Positions 15,524 through 39,549 of a DNA stretch of 42,143 bases are shown piece by piece; positions within the stretch are counted from its first letter, which is position 1, and every line of letters starts with the position of its first letter. Source of the DNA: Lachnospiraceae bacterium (GTDB taxonomy: Bacteria; Bacillota; Clostridia; Lachnospirales; Lachnospiraceae); assembly GCA_015057085.1 (NCBI GenBank), contig SVFB01000092.1:1-42143 (forward strand), read 5' to 3'. The translations under genes were made by a program, and so were the position numbers. The notes beneath the pieces are model-generated. The model was not told the origin of the DNA, searched no databases, and saw only the letters and a list, made by a program, of their open reading frames with translations.

Positions 15524-15530
15524 AACTTGG

Positions 15531-15871
15531 ATGCAGGACAGGCGATCGCGGCCGCAAGTGGGGAAACCCCGCGGGTGAGGAAAGTCCGGGCTTCATAGGG
15601 CAAGGATGCCGGTTAACGGCCGGTGGAGGAAACTCTAAGGATAGTGCAACAGAAAATAAACCGCCCCTTTTGGGGTAAGGGTGGAATGGCAGTGTAAGAG
15701 ACTACCGCACTTCTGGTAACAGAAGTGGCTGTGTAAACCCCATCCGAAGCAAGACCGAATCAAAGCAGTGACGTGGCCCGCCAGCTTTAGGTAGGTCGCT
15801 TGAGGCGGCTGGTAACAGTCGTCCTAGATAGATGATCGCTCAACGACATAACCCGGCTTATCGTTCTGCTA
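15531..15871 (+). ncRNA. rnpB: RNase P RNA, bacterial type A
   Basis: This is the catalytic RNA that removes 5' leaders from tRNA precursors. Conserved blocks are present: GAGGAAAGTCCGGGCT (the 5' strand of P4 and its flank), ACAGAAA after the GTGCA segment, AGATAGATGATCGC, and ACATAACCCGGCTTA near the 3' end. P1 can be drawn as GCAGGAC (15533-15539) with GTTCTGC (15863-15869), including one G-U pair. The length of about 340 nt and the layout fit type A, the form seen in clostridia, rather than the Bacillus type B. It has its own promoter and terminator. Confidence 0.96.
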
Positions 15872-15875
15872 TTAT

Positions 15876-15912
15876 GAAAACCACCATGCCAGCAGCATGG
15901 TGGTTTTCTTTT
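15876..15912 (+). terminator. Rho-independent terminator of rnpB
   Basis: GAAAACCACCATGC (15876-15889) pairs perfectly with GCATGGTGGTTTTC (15895-15908), loop CAGCA. T-rich sequence follows. Confidence 0.93.
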
Positions 15913-34236: not shown

Positions 34237-35028
34237 TTAATTGAAATAGATATCTACATGTCCGAACCCATTATCAACATTGATATGAATAATCGGAGCA
34301 TCATTTTCGTTGGAAGGCATTCCATGAACCAATACCTTTCCAAATCCGGAATCCTCTTTCAAATTTAATTTCCATGATGCAGGAAGATAAAGATTTGTAT
34401 TTCCAAAACCATTATCTACTGAAATGACTGCAGCACCATTTGTGATTTGAGTGCCATCGAAATATACAGTTAAATTTCCGAAACCATTATCCAAAGTGGC
34501 ACTTTGAAAATTCTGACTGCTGATATAATCAGTGCGTTCTCCGAAACTGTTTTCGATAGTGACATTATTATCACTGTATGAGTTGGTATAAACCACATCG
34601 TCATCCGAATTCTGATTGGATTCATTCTCATCATCGTCATCAAAGCTATAAGAGATGTTGAATTTTGGTTTCTTGTGGTGCTTTTTTTTGATTTGTTTTT
34701 TGGAATTCTTAAAGATGATATCCAAACCTACACCGATTAAAGTACCTGCAATGATAAGTGTCCAGGATGATAAAGTATACGGAATTTGAAGCGCATCACG
34801 ATAGAGATGAACAATCACAGATGCTGATAAGAACATTCCTATGAAGGACAAATCAACAATCGAATTGACCAATACTACGCCAAAGATGATGGTCCATGCA
34901 ATTTGTGAGAAGCTTAGGCTTAGATTTAAAGAATCGAAGACGCCAAGTCCGTTTAAAAGAAATAAAACAGCGGCAACGATGATTACGATTCCCCAGAGAA
35001 TTCCTTTATATTTTTTCTTGATTTTCAT
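34237..35028 (-). CDS. LiaF-like membrane stress protein
   Basis: The 263-residue protein starts with about four hydrophobic segments (residues 8 to about 100; GILWGIVIIVAAVLFLLNGL first). A basic/acidic linker (KKHHKKPK, then a D/E/N/S-rich stretch) leads to a C-terminal domain built of five repeats of about 20-25 residues around SFG or GFG (ENSFGERT, DNGFGNLT, DNGFGNTN, DSGFGKVL, DNGFGHVD). This is the beta-repeat pattern of the LiaF/VraT-type cell-wall antibiotic response domain. ATG 35028 is chosen for GAGGT 7 nt upstream; a GTG at 35052 is less likely. It follows the LytTR gene on the same strand and is probably its partner. Confidence 0.82.
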   Translation of the reverse strand: MKIKKKYKGILWGIVIIVAAVLFLLNGLGVFDSLNLSLSFSQIAWTIIFGVVLVNSIVDLSFIGMFLSASVIVHLYRDALQIPYTLSSWTLIIAGTLIGVGLDIIFKNSKKQIKKKHHKKPKFNISYSFDDDDENESNQNSDDDVVYTNSYSDNNVTIENSFGERTDYISSQNFQSATLDNGFGNLTVYFDGTQITNGAAVISVDNGFGNTNLYLPASWKLNLKEDSGFGKVLVHGMPSNENDAPIIHINVDNGFGHVDIYFN

Positions 35029-35068
35029 TTGATTTACCTCATTTCTGCACAAGTTGGTGTGCTTTTGA

Positions 35069-35515
35069 TTAATGTGTCATCTTATCGATGAGCAACTTGT
35101 AGTAGTTTCTTGATACATAAGCTTTTTTAGAAGAAGCTGCGAATTCAATCTCGCTTGCTCCGGTAATGTTTTTGTGAATGCTTCGGATTTCTTTGATGTT
35201 CAAAATACATGATTTTGAAACACGCATGAAATAAGGTGGAAGCAGTTCTTCCAGCTCATATAATTTCTGTTTGGTCGAAAAGATTTTATCCTTTGTGTGA
35301 ACAGCCAAACGATTTCCATCAGTTTCCATAAAGATGATCTCGGGATATTTTAAGAAATAATCCAGCTCGCCATGACTTACGGAAAGGGTAGCCTGAGATT
35401 TGATTAAGCTTTGAAGTTGCCTTTGTAATTCAAGCGTTTCTTCATTTAGTTCACGACAGCGAATGATGATTTCGTCTTCTTCTAACCGTTCATCTGTCTC
35501 AATTCTGATTTTCAT
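35069..35515 (-). CDS. LytTR-type DNA-binding regulator without receiver domain
   Basis: The 148-residue protein has a coiled N-terminal part (about 1-50, rich in Glu and Leu) and a C-terminal LytTR domain (about 55-148; YFLKYPEIIFMETDGNRLAV, FMRVSKSCILNIKEI, VSRNYYKLLID). There is no receiver domain, so it is controlled by something other than a classic histidine kinase. GGGGAGG precedes the ATG. Its promoter (35546-35574) is good. It is 40 nt from the LiaF-like gene, with which it forms an operon. Such pairs of small LytTR proteins and membrane partners are common in clostridia and are thought to act as membrane-controlled switches. Confidence 0.92.
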   Translation of the reverse strand: MKIRIETDERLEEDEIIIRCRELNEETLELQRQLQSLIKSQATLSVSHGELDYFLKYPEIIFMETDGNRLAVHTKDKIFSTKQKLYELEELLPPYFMRVSKSCILNIKEIRSIHKNITGASEIEFAASSKKAYVSRNYYKLLIDKMTH

Positions 35516-35665: not shown

Positions 35666-35694
35666 TTGACATGGAAACTGAAAAGTGACAGAAT
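35666..35694 (+). promoter_or_regulatory. Promoter of the ABC exporter leader
   Basis: A perfect TTGACA (35666-35671), a 17-nt spacer and CAGAAT (35689-35694) give a start near 35701. This leaves a leader of about 330 nt before the ABC gene at 36035. The -10 is imperfect. Confidence 0.55.
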
Positions 35695-35754
35695 AAGCAT
35701 GTCGATACTGCTACACATCGACAAAATATGAAAGAAAGCGAGGTAAAAAGTATT

Positions 35755-35856
35755 ATGTTTAATACAGTGGCAATTTTAGTGAATAATTTTAAGCATGATT
35801 ATGATTACGTGGGAAACCACAACTTTACCTCGGGATATTCTATAAAGATGCCGTGA
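35755..35856 (+). CDS. Putative 33-residue leader peptide
   Basis: The ORF begins MFNTVAILVNNFKHDYDYVG and ends with KMP before TGA (35854-35856). GAGGT in segment 1 of the attenuator is the only ribosome-site-like sequence, about 10 nt before the ATG, so it is somewhat distant. Codons 24-27 coincide with attenuator segment 2, and a GTGG-GAAA-CCAC hairpin (35809-35820) precedes them. There is no run of one amino acid, so control by a single charged tRNA is unlikely. Stalling by a ribosome-acting compound is the better guess, as for BmrB. It is too short to judge by coding bias. Confidence 0.5.
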   Translation: MFNTVAILVNNFKHDYDYVGNHNFTSGYSIKMP

Positions 35857-35904
35857 TACGTTTGATGTGCATTTTTAAATAGAATTGATTTGTTTGCAGA
35901 CATT

Positions 35905-35941
35905 GCCCTAGGTAAAGATAGATTTACCTAGGGCTTTTTTT
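35905..35941 (+). terminator. Attenuator terminator hairpin
   Basis: GCCCTAGGTAAA (35905-35916) and TTTACCTAGGGC (35923-35934) form a perfect 12-bp stem, loop GATAGA, followed by TTTTTTT (35935-35941). It is the 3:4 pair of the attenuator. A second hairpin, ATATAGGAAATTT/AAATTCCTATAT with loop CTTCG and one bulged A (35943-35972), follows directly. Confidence 0.93.
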
Positions 35942-36034
35942 GATATAGGAAATTTCTTCGAAATTCCTATATGTCATGCGAACAAGCCCGGGAGTAGAGA
36001 GAGTAGGATTTGAGAAAAAGAGGAGGAGAAAAAC

Positions 36035-37768
36035 GTGAAAACACTTGGTAGCTATGTGATAAAACATTGGGCAACCTACACGATGGCAATTTTGTTTATG
36101 ATATTTGCAATAGCTCTTGATATGATGTATCCGCAGATTACAAGAATTATCATGAATGAAGTGCTTGTGGGAAGAGATTTCCATCGATTTGGTTGGCTGC
36201 TAGGCGCGATCATTTTGATTGGAGTTGGACGCAGTGTCTTCGGATATTTTAAAGAATTTACTTTTGACAAGAACTGTATCACCATCGGAACAGAAATGAG
36301 AAAAGATTTGTTTGACCATATTCAAAGTCTTTCATTAGACTATTTCGATGATACAAATACAGGGGAACTGATGGCCCGTGTAAAAGATGATATCGATAAA
36401 GTATACAATATGGTAGGAATGCAGGCTATGCTTGGAATGGAAGTAATCCTAAATGTAATTTTGGTGCTTTATTTTATGTTTAGCCTGAATTGGATTTTAA
36501 CTTTTCTTCCACTTTTTTGTATGGTAATTTGCGGTGTGACAGCAATTGTTATGGAAAAGAAGCTGGATAAGGTATATGACGAAATCAGTGAGGAAAATGC
36601 AGAACTGACAACCGTCGCAGAGGAAAATCTGGCAGGTGTCAGAACGGTTAAGGCTTTTGCCAGAGAAGAATATGAAATCAAAAAGTTTATGGAACATAAT
36701 CACAGATATTATGATTTAAACATGAAAGAGGCAAAAACCTTGATTCGATTCTATCCGATATTTCAGTTGACAGCGATGCTTCTTCCGGTTGCATGCGCAG
36801 TACTGGGCGGTATTTTTGTAATTCAAGGGAAAATGAATTTGGGTGATTTGACAGCCTATATCGTATACAGTCGTAACTGTACATGGCCAATGGAGGAAAT
36901 CGGATGGATCACAAATGATTTCTCAAGTTCTCTTGCATCGCTTAAGAAAATCAAGAAAATTTACAAAGAGCATTCGACTTTGCAGCTTGCGCAATATCCG
37001 ATTGAGGTTCCGCAGGTTGATGGAAATGTTCGATTTGACCATGTTTCTTTGAAATTTGGAGACCAGGAAGTACTTTCCGATATTTGTTTTGAATTGGAAT
37101 GCGGAAAGACACTAGGTATCATGGGCGAAACCGGATCCGGAAAATCTACCATTGTTAATCTGCTTCAGAGATTTTATGACCCGACTGAGGGAGATATTAC
37201 TCTTGACGGAAACAATATTAAAGAGATGGATTTACAACAGGTGCGCGGTGCAAGTGCTGTTGTAATGCAGGATGTATTTCTGTTTTCGGATTCCATTGAG
37301 GAGAATATCCGAATGGGAAGACGAGAAGAGATGAACATGGAAGAGATTCAAAGTGCTGCGCAGATGGCACAGGCAAGTGATTTTATCGAAAAGATGGAAG
37401 AACAGTACAAGACTGTAATCGGAGAACGTGGCGTTGGTCTTTCCGGAGGACAAAAGCAAAGAATCAGTATAGCAAGAGCGTTATCAAAGCATGCGCCGAT
37501 TCTGATAATGGATGATTCGACTTCGGCTCTTGATATGGAAACCGAAGCAGAGATTCAAAAGACAATGGATTCCATTACCGGCGTAACTCGCATTGTAGTT
37601 GCTCACAGAGTATCGGCAGTGAAGCATGCCGATGAAATCATTTATTTAAAAGATGGACGTATTGCTGAACGCGGTACACATCAGGAATTATTGGCAAAGA
37701 AGGGACTGTATTACGACACTTATGTGGCACAATACGGTTTAGATATGAAAGAGGAGGTGATTGCATAA
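36035..37768 (+). CDS. Heterodimeric ABC exporter subunit with degenerate NBD (BmrC/LmrC-like)
   Basis: This 577-residue half-transporter has six membrane helices (about 10-310) and a C-terminal nucleotide-binding domain: Walker A GETGSGKST, normal signature LSGGQKQR, Walker B ILIMDDSTSALD with Asp in place of the catalytic Glu, and H-loop VAHR. An Asp at this place marks the non-catalytic site half in heterodimeric exporters such as BmrC, LmrC and TM287. GTG is the start, 6 nt after AGGAGGAG. It overlaps the next gene by one base (TAATG). Together they should export drugs or other hydrophobic compounds. Control is by the leader attenuator upstream. Confidence 0.93.
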   Translation: MKTLGSYVIKHWATYTMAILFMIFAIALDMMYPQITRIIMNEVLVGRDFHRFGWLLGAIILIGVGRSVFGYFKEFTFDKNCITIGTEMRKDLFDHIQSLSLDYFDDTNTGELMARVKDDIDKVYNMVGMQAMLGMEVILNVILVLYFMFSLNWILTFLPLFCMVICGVTAIVMEKKLDKVYDEISEENAELTTVAEENLAGVRTVKAFAREEYEIKKFMEHNHRYYDLNMKEAKTLIRFYPIFQLTAMLLPVACAVLGGIFVIQGKMNLGDLTAYIVYSRNCTWPMEEIGWITNDFSSSLASLKKIKKIYKEHSTLQLAQYPIEVPQVDGNVRFDHVSLKFGDQEVLSDICFELECGKTLGIMGETGSGKSTIVNLLQRFYDPTEGDITLDGNNIKEMDLQQVRGASAVVMQDVFLFSDSIEENIRMGRREEMNMEEIQSAAQMAQASDFIEKMEEQYKTVIGERGVGLSGGQKQRISIARALSKHAPILIMDDSTSALDMETEAEIQKTMDSITGVTRIVVAHRVSAVKHADEIIYLKDGRIAERGTHQELLAKKGLYYDTYVAQYGLDMKEEVIA

Positions 37769-39549
37769 TGGCAGCAAATTCTTTCCGTGAAGATGAAACA
37801 TTGCAAAATACGGACAAAAAGAAAATTGTCGGCCGTATGCTCAGCTATCTCAGACCTCACATCGCAGAAATCATTCCGGTATTGATTTCGCTGGTGATCA
37901 CTGTATTGATTAACCTTGTAAGTCCGCTTTTAATAGAGCGGGCTGTGGATGTTCATGTGGCGAATAAAGATATCAAAGGATTGATTACGATTACGTCGAT
38001 TGTGGTGGCGCTGGGTATTATATATGTGCTTGTAGTAAAACTTCGAATGTTTTTGATGAATCGTATTTCAAACAAAATTCTGCTTGATATTCGAGAGGAG
38101 TTATATAAGCATATTCAGACATTGTCATTTACATTTTTTGACAGCAGACCTACCGGTAAGATTTTGGCGCGCATCATTGGAGATGTCAATTCTTTAAAAG
38201 AAGTTATGGCAAATACCATTACGAATTTGATTCCGAACTTTGTAACGGTAATCGGAGTTGTCATCATAATGTTGTTGAAGGATTGGAGACTGGCTCTTGG
38301 AACGCTTTGCTCCATGCCGCTTATGATAATTGCAGTCTTTATCATTCGAAGCAAGACTCATTCCCGTTGGCAGGCGATGAGAAAGAAAGCATCTAACTTA
38401 AATGCATATGTACATGAGGATATTGCCGGAATCTCTGTGGTACAGAGTTTTCATGCGGAAAACGAAACCAAGACGACATTTCGTCAATTGGCAAATGAGC
38501 ACAGAGATGCGTATATTTCTGCTTGTCGTTCCGCCGATTTGTTTGGTCCTGCCATTGATTCAAGCTGGAGTATCAGCAGTATGGTGATGTATCTGGTAGC
38601 AATCTGGGCACTTGGTTATACAGATGCTTCCGCTGGTTTGATTATTGCATTTGCTACTTATGCAAATATGTTCTGGAGCCCAATCATGAGATTGTCAGGA
38701 TTTTATAATCAGCTGGTTACGAATATTTCTGCAGCAGAGCGTGTGTTTGATATTCTGGACACAGAAGCAGAAATCGTAGACAAGCCGGATGCTTTTGAAC
38801 TTCCTGAAGTCACAGGAAGTGTTGAATTCTCTCATGTTGGATTTACTTATGATGAGGGCACTGAGGCAGAAACAAAGGTGCTTGAAGATGTGAGCTTTAC
38901 CGTTAAACCGGGTGAAACCATCGCCTTGGTTGGACCGACGGGAGCGGGTAAGACGACCATTGTGAATTTGATCAGCAGATTCTATGATATTCAAAAAGGA
39001 AGCATTTCAATCGACGGATACGATTTGACGGATGTGACTATCAACAGTCTGCGCCGTCAGATGGGTGTGATGACACAGGATAATTTCATCTTCCATGGAA
39101 CGGTAAGAGAAAATATCATGTATGGCAAGATGGATGCAACAGAAGAGGAAATGATTGCAGCAGCAAAGGCTGTCAATGCGCATGACTTCATTATGAAACT
39201 GGAAAAGGGCTATGATACACCGCTTAAGGAACGCGGAGCCGGCCTTTCAATTGGACAGAGACAGCTGATTGCATTTGCCCGCACCATGATTTCTATGCCG
39301 AAGGTATTGATTTTGGATGAGGCAACCAGTAGTATTGATACGCATACGGAAATGCTGGTACAGCAGGGCATTCAGACCTTATTAAAGGGACGAACCAGCT
39401 TTGTAATTGCACATCGATTGTCAACAATTAAGAATGCGGATCGTATTTTTGTCATCAACGATGGCGGAATCAAAGAAAGCGGAACACATGAACAGTTGAT
39501 GAATAAAAAAGGTGCTTATTACGATTTATATATGGCCGCATATGCATAA
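37768..39549 (+). CDS. Heterodimeric ABC exporter subunit with catalytic NBD (BmrD/LmrD-like)
   Basis: This 593-residue half-transporter has a cytosolic N-terminal stretch, six membrane helices (about 35-330), and an NBD with Walker A GPTGAGKTT, signature LSIGQRQL, Walker B VLILDEATSSID with the catalytic Glu, and H-loop IAHR. The signature deviates from LSGGQ and would face the partner's degenerate site. The partner's perfect LSGGQ completes the active site here. This division matches known heterodimers. The ATG overlaps the previous stop and has GAGGAGG upstream. No terminator was seen behind it. The M42 gene begins 48 nt later. Confidence 0.94.
   Translation: MAANSFREDETLQNTDKKKIVGRMLSYLRPHIAEIIPVLISLVITVLINLVSPLLIERAVDVHVANKDIKGLITITSIVVALGIIYVLVVKLRMFLMNRISNKILLDIREELYKHIQTLSFTFFDSRPTGKILARIIGDVNSLKEVMANTITNLIPNFVTVIGVVIIMLLKDWRLALGTLCSMPLMIIAVFIIRSKTHSRWQAMRKKASNLNAYVHEDIAGISVVQSFHAENETKTTFRQLANEHRDAYISACRSADLFGPAIDSSWSISSMVMYLVAIWALGYTDASAGLIIAFATYANMFWSPIMRLSGFYNQLVTNISAAERVFDILDTEAEIVDKPDAFELPEVTGSVEFSHVGFTYDEGTEAETKVLEDVSFTVKPGETIALVGPTGAGKTTIVNLISRFYDIQKGSISIDGYDLTDVTINSLRRQMGVMTQDNFIFHGTVRENIMYGKMDATEEEMIAAAKAVNAHDFIMKLEKGYDTPLKERGAGLSIGQRQLIAFARTMISMPKVLILDEATSSIDTHTEMLVQQGIQTLLKGRTSFVIAHRLSTIKNADRIFVINDGGIKESGTHEQLMNKKGAYYDLYMAAYA

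Follow-up and report, generated by a model that had tools for sequence, protein, structure and literature searches.

A leader RNA family with the build of a ribosome-sensing attenuator precedes exporter and RsgA-like genes in the order Lachnospirales

Do ribosomes decide whether the exporter genes at this locus are transcribed? Ahead of two ABC exporter genes in the window, as we call the whole analysed stretch of 42,143 nucleotides, a preliminary description had seen a promoter, a 33-residue leader ORF, four mutually complementary segments and a 12-bp terminator with T7. It had read them as a ribosome-dependent attenuator, a clostridial counterpart of the bmrB-bmrCD system. We recovered all of these elements at the positions given there, and the arrangement of the leader is not a product of chance. 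The analysis added a 5' hairpin (35700-35723), a hairpin around the leader stop codon (35837-35884), a fifth segment, and the membership of the leader in an RNA family that is found in the taxonomic order of the window. From 5' to 3', the features are:

35666..35694, + strand: sigma-70-type promoter, TTGACA-N17-CAGAAT, matching the consensus at 10 of 12 positions
35700..35723, + strand: 5' hairpin at the predicted RNA 5' end, loop around GCTAC, with covariation
35739..35747, + strand: segment 1, CGAGGTAAA, the Shine-Dalgarno region of the leader ORF and arm of the predicted 1:2 anti-antiterminator
35755..35856, + strand: leader ORF of 33 residues, ATG at 35755, stop codon ending at 35856
35823..35834, + strand: segment 2, CTTTACCTCGGG, within the leader ORF, predicted partner of segment 1, 3 or 5
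35837..35884, + strand: hairpin between segments 2 and 3 that contains the leader stop codon, predicted by folding and partial covariation
35905..35916, + strand: segment 3, 5' arm of the terminator and 3' arm of the predicted antiterminator
35923..35941, + strand: segment 4 and T7 (35935-35941), 3' arm and U tract of the terminator
about 35986..35999, + strand: segment 5, complementary to segment 2 and less so to segment 4 (p 0.010 in the window)
36035..37768, + strand: ABC exporter subunit 1, Walker B ILIMDD
37768..39549, + strand: ABC exporter subunit 2, Walker B VLILDE

Segment 1 had been placed in the ribosome-site region of the ORF; it is the Shine-Dalgarno region itself, and all nine of its positions (35739-35747) pair with 35824-35832. 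The complementarity described for segments 2 and 3 holds at 11 of 12 positions (35823-35834 against 35906-35917), with one fixed mismatch inside the helix. The terminator stem formed by segments 3 and 4 (35905-35916 and 35923-35934) is complete at 12 of 12 pairs. The leader as a whole folds with a z-score of -6.2, and none of 200 shuffled sequences was equally stable. A second in-frame ATG at 35728 would give an ORF of 42 residues; no Shine-Dalgarno sequence was seen ahead of it. The promoter site alone is weak evidence, because an 8-kb scan returned 23 promoter-like sites where 22.9 were expected. TTGACA with a 17-nt spacer is present in all 20 listed members of the close clade, and over all loci of the family an upstream promoter scoring at least 10/12 was found at 68 of 129, against 19 of 645 shuffles.

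The surroundings hold other recognisable elements. An RNase P RNA of bacterial class A lies at 15530-15876 of the window, and genes for a LytTR regulator and a LiaF-like membrane protein (34237-35515, minus strand) diverge from the exporter leader. Directly 3' of the terminator stands a short hairpin, ATATAGGAAATT / AAATTCCTATAT (35943-35972), also present at L002-L006 and L008. The genome contains about 20 copies besides that of the window, and those that were viewed adjoin T-rich, terminator-like stretches: the element looks like a terminator-associated palindromic repeat whose copy in the window is partly degraded.

The two exporter genes overlap by one base, and the difference between their Walker B motifs is characteristic of heterodimers in which one site is degenerate. 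By protein similarity we fetched 80 exporter homologues, 13 of them with at least 54% identity. The leader layout lies upstream of all 13, recognised by covariance model in 12 and by eye in one (L019). Ten of the 12 leaders found by the model went into its building, with L015 and L021 outside it. No covariance-model match was obtained for the other 67 homologues (at most 41% identity), some of which come with little upstream DNA. The closest named relative is Agathobacter ruminis (L011, 81%), followed by Butyrivibrio. Segment 2 is read as FTSG in the window and in A. ruminis and as TLPR or LPR in the Butyrivibrio clade; given this difference in frame, it is the RNA and not the peptide that is kept there.

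How far does the leader extend beyond these exporters? When the complete leader was searched as DNA against 200 genomes of the Lachnospiraceae, a single place besides the window itself came up (L010). The latter lies ahead of an unrelated gene, which led us to a pattern search and then to a covariance model, R1. The pattern matched in 9 of 397 family genomes and a reversed control pattern in none. R1 was built from 19 sequences and runs from segment 1 through the intervening ORF sequence to segment 2; it contains no terminator. The model matched in 46 of 397 family genomes (E 0.1) and in 56 of 79 genomes of the genus of G207 (E 0.05), which is probably Butyrivibrio, to judge from leaders identical to named loci. 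It matched in 39 of 392 genomes of the window's order, ten of them in other families (E 0.02), and in 7 of 391 genomes of the class (E 0.02), where the single match outside the family looks false. Searches over 40 genomes ran with stricter filters, so that absences there are to be read as lower bounds. The pooled set, with each place counted once, consists of 128 loci that were fetched from 104 genomes and amount to 122 distinct sequences; 14 further R1 matches (3, 3 and 8) lie outside it. Close species weigh too heavily in the set, with 79 of the genomes searched drawn from one genus.

The E-values of R1 are rough and hold per genome, and on paper E 0.1 allows about 40 chance matches in 397 genomes. 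The terminator, which lies outside the model, was therefore taken as evidence: it was found within 220 nt downstream of the R1 match at 121 of 127 testable loci, against 11 of 381 shuffles. A leader ORF spans segment 2 at 118 of 128 loci, while shuffled spacers were open in 454 of 2360 cases. The leader stop lies a median of 13 nt past CCTC across the family loci and 22 nt past it in the window. Two loci (L152 and L153) gave no terminator in one scan and a terminator once bulges were allowed. Several R1 matches are likely false: L132, L137, L143 and L221, with neither leader ORF nor terminator found, and L246, outside the pool, with a long gene and no terminator seen. A second, weak match in the genome of the window (L245, E 0.89) shows no such leader. 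L164, whose gene start went unrecognised, was left out of the clade tables for that reason.

Rfam 15 gave no match above the gathering score over the window leader or the leaders of nine related loci, and at E up to 5 only weak, unrelated matches over the window leader. Among the best-ranked matches of a literature search in openly accessible journals, we found neither an attenuator family of the same kind nor an RsgA gene under attenuator control. Nor did we find there a published description of this family, of a leader Shine-Dalgarno sequence serving as anti-antiterminator arm together with a stop at a kept distance, of the shared gene set, or of segment 5. PMC2965389 places many attenuators ahead of ABC transporters, and RsgA is absent from its main text.

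The aligned leaders show compensatory changes in the terminator, in the 1:2 helix and in the 5' hairpin, and show them only weakly in the antiterminator 2:3. Among 20 close-clade sequences, two-sided changes occur at 10 of the 12 terminator pairs and at 5 of 6 pairs of the 5' hairpin, in which 99.2% of cells are paired; for either stem, 0 of 500 shuffles scored as high. Since its arms covary, a reading of the 5' inverted repeat as a DNA operator was ruled out. The 1:2 helix is 94.7% paired over 19 rows and three of its nine pairs covary, a count in which 8 of the 19 rows had been found by a pattern that itself required pairing. The hairpin at 35837-35884 is paired in 93.6% of cells of the 20 close-clade sequences and has two-sided changes at 3 of 9 pairs; its covariation score was reached by 4 of 500 shuffles and its number of such pairs by 67. 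The antiterminator is paired to 96.5%, and two-sided change is limited to a single pair, which goes from G-C to U-A in L168 and L017; here shuffles reached the score in 8 of 500 cases and the number of two-sided pairs in 157. The preliminary description had called for a covariance check in relatives: uncompensated loss of pairing was not seen in the terminator, the 1:2 helix or the 5' hairpin, and the 2:3 helix is kept with few two-sided changes. Conservation, covariation and geometry give good support to its reading of the leader as a ribosome-dependent attenuator.

On the anatomy, conservation, covariation and distribution established here, the leader quite probably acts as a ribosome-sensing transcription attenuator that is open when ribosomes sit on the start of its ORF. 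From this arrangement we infer the following logic. Without translation, the Shine-Dalgarno region (segment 1) would pair with segment 2, segment 3 would pair with segment 4, and transcription would end. Under brisk translation the ribosome would move over segment 2, and the 3:4 stem would form again, so that the switch would also be off. Ribosomes on the leader start, or queued behind a slowed ribosome, would mask segment 1 and free segment 2 for segment 3. With 2:3 formed first, the terminator would come too late to stop RNA polymerase on the U tract, and transcription would run on into the exporter genes. In the read-through RNA, segment 5 could take segment 2. Analogy and the genes involved suggest translation inhibitors as the signal.

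Folding alone is no proof of a switch. Partition functions with masked stretches, computed for 115 loci with the last 4 stem nucleotides still unexposed, agree in direction with the proposed logic: the median predicted probability of the terminator, 0.84 without any mask, fell to 0.13 when the mask covered the leader start and to 0.64 when it covered segment 2, and stayed at 0.84 when it covered the middle of the ORF. Start masking lowered this probability by more than 0.3 in only 52 of the 115 loci, and in the RsgA class, described below, masking of segment 2 lowered it as well (from a median of 0.79 to one of 0.50), an effect not expected from the simple model. For the window, the same run gave a decrease from 0.95 to 0.87 only; with the 5' end set at 35695 or 35701, start masking brought the value to 0.07 or 0.01 at the same point. 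Under all three assumed 5' ends, start masking kept the predicted 2:3 helix at 0.90 or above up to an exposed end at 35928, and the terminator took over between exposed ends 35929 and 35932. In the full-length RNA the terminator wins in every masked state, so the open state would need kinetic trapping, that is, timing. In models of the window, one ribosome in the middle of the ORF leaves 1:2 and 3:4 favoured and the switch shut, and two ribosomes, one of them on the start, give the open state.

Which genes stand behind the switch? By blastp, the first ORF behind the R1 leader at the 128 loci is RsgA-like in 63 cases and exporter-like in 41 (L201 was counted as an exporter at 25% identity only), and a rescan of the remaining loci added three RsgA genes and four exporters. 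GNAT acetyltransferase genes follow the leader at L115, L165 and L223, and likewise at L211, there ahead of an RsgA gene. By eye, such genes were also seen behind the leader at L117, L128 and L195, and the GNAT class has a leader peptide type of its own, ending SEYLLKTSA. A MATE-family efflux pump (L191, 273-1664) lies behind an RsgA-type leader, and an NFACT protein is encoded about 500 nt further on at L108 (the same place as L096). At L121 (1843-3085), a gene for a small RNHCP-domain protein is located between the leader and the RsgA gene.

The RsgA copies were checked in seven genomes, of which five have two strong copies. In four of these five, the second copy lies behind an R1 leader (G207, L130; G405, L206; G419, L202; G047, L104), and in none of the seven is the best-scoring copy at an R1 match. 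The genome of the window and its congener G292 have one strong RsgA copy, without such a leader. The second RsgA copy behind the leader is possibly an inducible ribosome factor. It would then be a parallel to hflXr, described in PMC6310831 as the Listeria resistance copy of HflX.

A stretch complementary to segment 2 was detected behind the terminator in 14 of 20 members of the exporter clade and in 50 of 63 RsgA-class loci (p <0.05 in comparison with shuffles). The six exporter-clade members that did not fall below 0.05 by best pairing are L100, L154, L155, L161, L166 and L168; at L151 and L155 the best-pairing stretch differs from the shared segment 5 motif. In the exporter clade, the mean predicted pairing of segment 5 is -13.8 kcal/mol with segment 2 and -12.0 kcal/mol with segment 4, a comparison in which segment 5 was picked by a motif resembling the complement of segment 2. 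Segment 4 is the better partner in 4 of the 20 members. Pairing with the Shine-Dalgarno sequence of the exporter was rejected for this clade, its mean being -5.1 kcal/mol compared with the two values above.

The segment 5 of the RsgA class reads like GAGGTCTCCATAC. TCTCCA is followed by TGGAGA within 130 nt at 23 of the 63 loci and not at the other 40. As TGGAGA is likely the Shine-Dalgarno sequence of RsgA, a second, translational layer appears plausible in this class, like that proposed for vmlR in PMC9226507. Column counts of the 2:5 pairing outside the anchor, taken over 48 of the 63 RsgA loci (32 distinct; 15 have no anchor), give a modest signal: 0.912 paired compared with 0.886 when partners were shuffled, a value reached in 24 of 2000 cases.

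How does the leader relate to known systems? An intrinsic terminator ahead of the gene is overlapped by an alternative antiterminator, and a short leader ORF overlaps the switch segments, as is characteristic of ribosome-mediated attenuators. This kind of switch is already known from bmrB, hflXr, vmlR, cplR and toiL. The best reading by analogy is that the leader works like vmlR, cplR, hflXr and bmrB, all of them established by experiment, but belongs to a separate RNA family. The vmlR leader of Bacillus subtilis, which opens when lincomycin or retapamulin stalls ribosomes at the start codon, shares with ours a uORF, an anti-antiterminator, an antiterminator and a terminator (PMC9226507). In an extra hairpin the Shine-Dalgarno sequence of vmlR itself is sequestered, and this hairpin, which according to the proposal is opened in the read-through RNA, is to be compared with segment 5 of the RsgA class (PMC9226507). 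However, the vmlR uORF has three codons, the target is an ABCF protein, and the uORF Shine-Dalgarno sequence is single-stranded and precedes the anti-antiterminator, whereas here it would form an arm of it (PMC9226507).

The cplR leader of Clostridioides difficile has its uORF sequestered in a 5' hairpin, switches between terminator and antiterminator, and combines transcriptional with translational attenuation; in contrast to our leader, the uORF has three codons (MRI), the target is an ABCF protein and the cplR Shine-Dalgarno sequence is held in the terminator stem (PMC10201436). The rli80-hflXr leader of Listeria monocytogenes shows ribosome-dependent attenuation with anti-antiterminator, antiterminator and terminator, and the gene that it controls encodes a ribosome GTPase in a resistance copy, the parallel to the second RsgA; it differs in its 14-residue ORF with an RLR motif and in its HflX-type target (PMC6310831). 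The comparable toiL uORF of Escherichia coli senses several drug classes, with tetracycline and retapamulin stalling ribosomes at the start codon, but it acts on topAI translation and Rho-dependent termination and not on an intrinsic terminator (PMC12121999).

The counterpart proposed in the preliminary description, bmrB-bmrCD of Bacillus subtilis, also serves a heterodimeric exporter. There, translation of the leader ORF is required and drugs that target the 50S subunit act as inducers; what the anti-anti-terminator does is a point that the authors do not settle (PMC4191407). The 53-residue bmrB ORF encloses the terminator (PMC4191407), whereas in the window the ORF ends at 35856 and the terminator begins at 35905. 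Among the solved structures compared, BmrC (YheI) and BmrD (YheH) do not stand out from several other exporters as matches to the two subunits: for subunit 1, Sav1866, TmrB and others score equal to or above BmrC/BmrD, and for subunit 2, TM288 scores clearly above them. With the terminator outside the ORF, the exporter no closer to BmrC/BmrD and the leader family also standing ahead of unrelated genes, the comparison survives as an analogy and fails as a claim of membership; we found no evidence of a common origin of the two systems.

The explanation that competes best with a drug-responsive attenuator, and one that we consider unlikely, is a sensor of initiation capacity, in which the 1:2 helix would compete with 30S subunits, and the switch would report on free ribosomes or on the state of growth and not on stalling by a drug. 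That the switch arm is the Shine-Dalgarno region itself and that RsgA is a 30S maturation GTPase both fit such a sensor, which by itself, however, needs neither an ORF open across segment 2 nor a stop at a kept distance. Less probable again is a peptide- or amino-acid-specific attenuator, in which the nascent peptide or a codon would stall the ribosome for one metabolite or drug. RsgA-class leader peptides do resemble one another (e.g. MSVKRIEIVTEYSMKTSVCDR), and VA stands near the start of many exporter-class peptides of the close clade, but segment 2 is read in the frame of FTSG in the window and of TLPR in the Butyrivibrio clade, and a ribosome that stalled at the end of the ORF would lie over segment 2, to the advantage of termination. 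The window peptide has no single-residue run (the longest is NN), as had been noted at the outset, which speaks against an amino-acid attenuator, and codon runs of the trp/his kind were found neither in this peptide nor in the family peptides read by eye.

A ligand- or protein-binding switch, with the 5' hairpin and its kept GCTAC loop as the sensor, appears improbable to a slightly greater degree: the hairpin covaries and the loop is kept in most of the 20 clade members, but it is described for the exporter clade only, whereas the remaining switch parts occur at loci of other classes. Chance repeats around an ordinary terminator are hardly credible, for although terminator-like sites are common in the 8-kb scan (11 against 5.5 expected), such an origin is at odds with conservation and covariation and already contradicted by the terminators at 121 of 127 loci against 11 of 381 shuffles.

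The ribosome-sensing attenuator may be part of something larger, which we put forward tentatively and rate at just short of an even chance. One RNA family, in which the Shine-Dalgarno sequence of the leader doubles as an arm of the switch, would wire a translation-stress regulon in the order of the window, made up of exporters and an inducible second RsgA, a ribosome-protecting or -recycling factor parallel to HflXr; in the RsgA class it would act on termination and, via segment 5, on the RsgA Shine-Dalgarno sequence. Should this hold, bacteria that are common in gut and rumen would possess the same compact RNA sensor for the state of their ribosomes, one recognisable by its sequence, and the switch would name a gene set turned on under disturbed translation, second RsgA copies included. 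The idea of a shared translation-stress regulon would then become testable with one reporter design.
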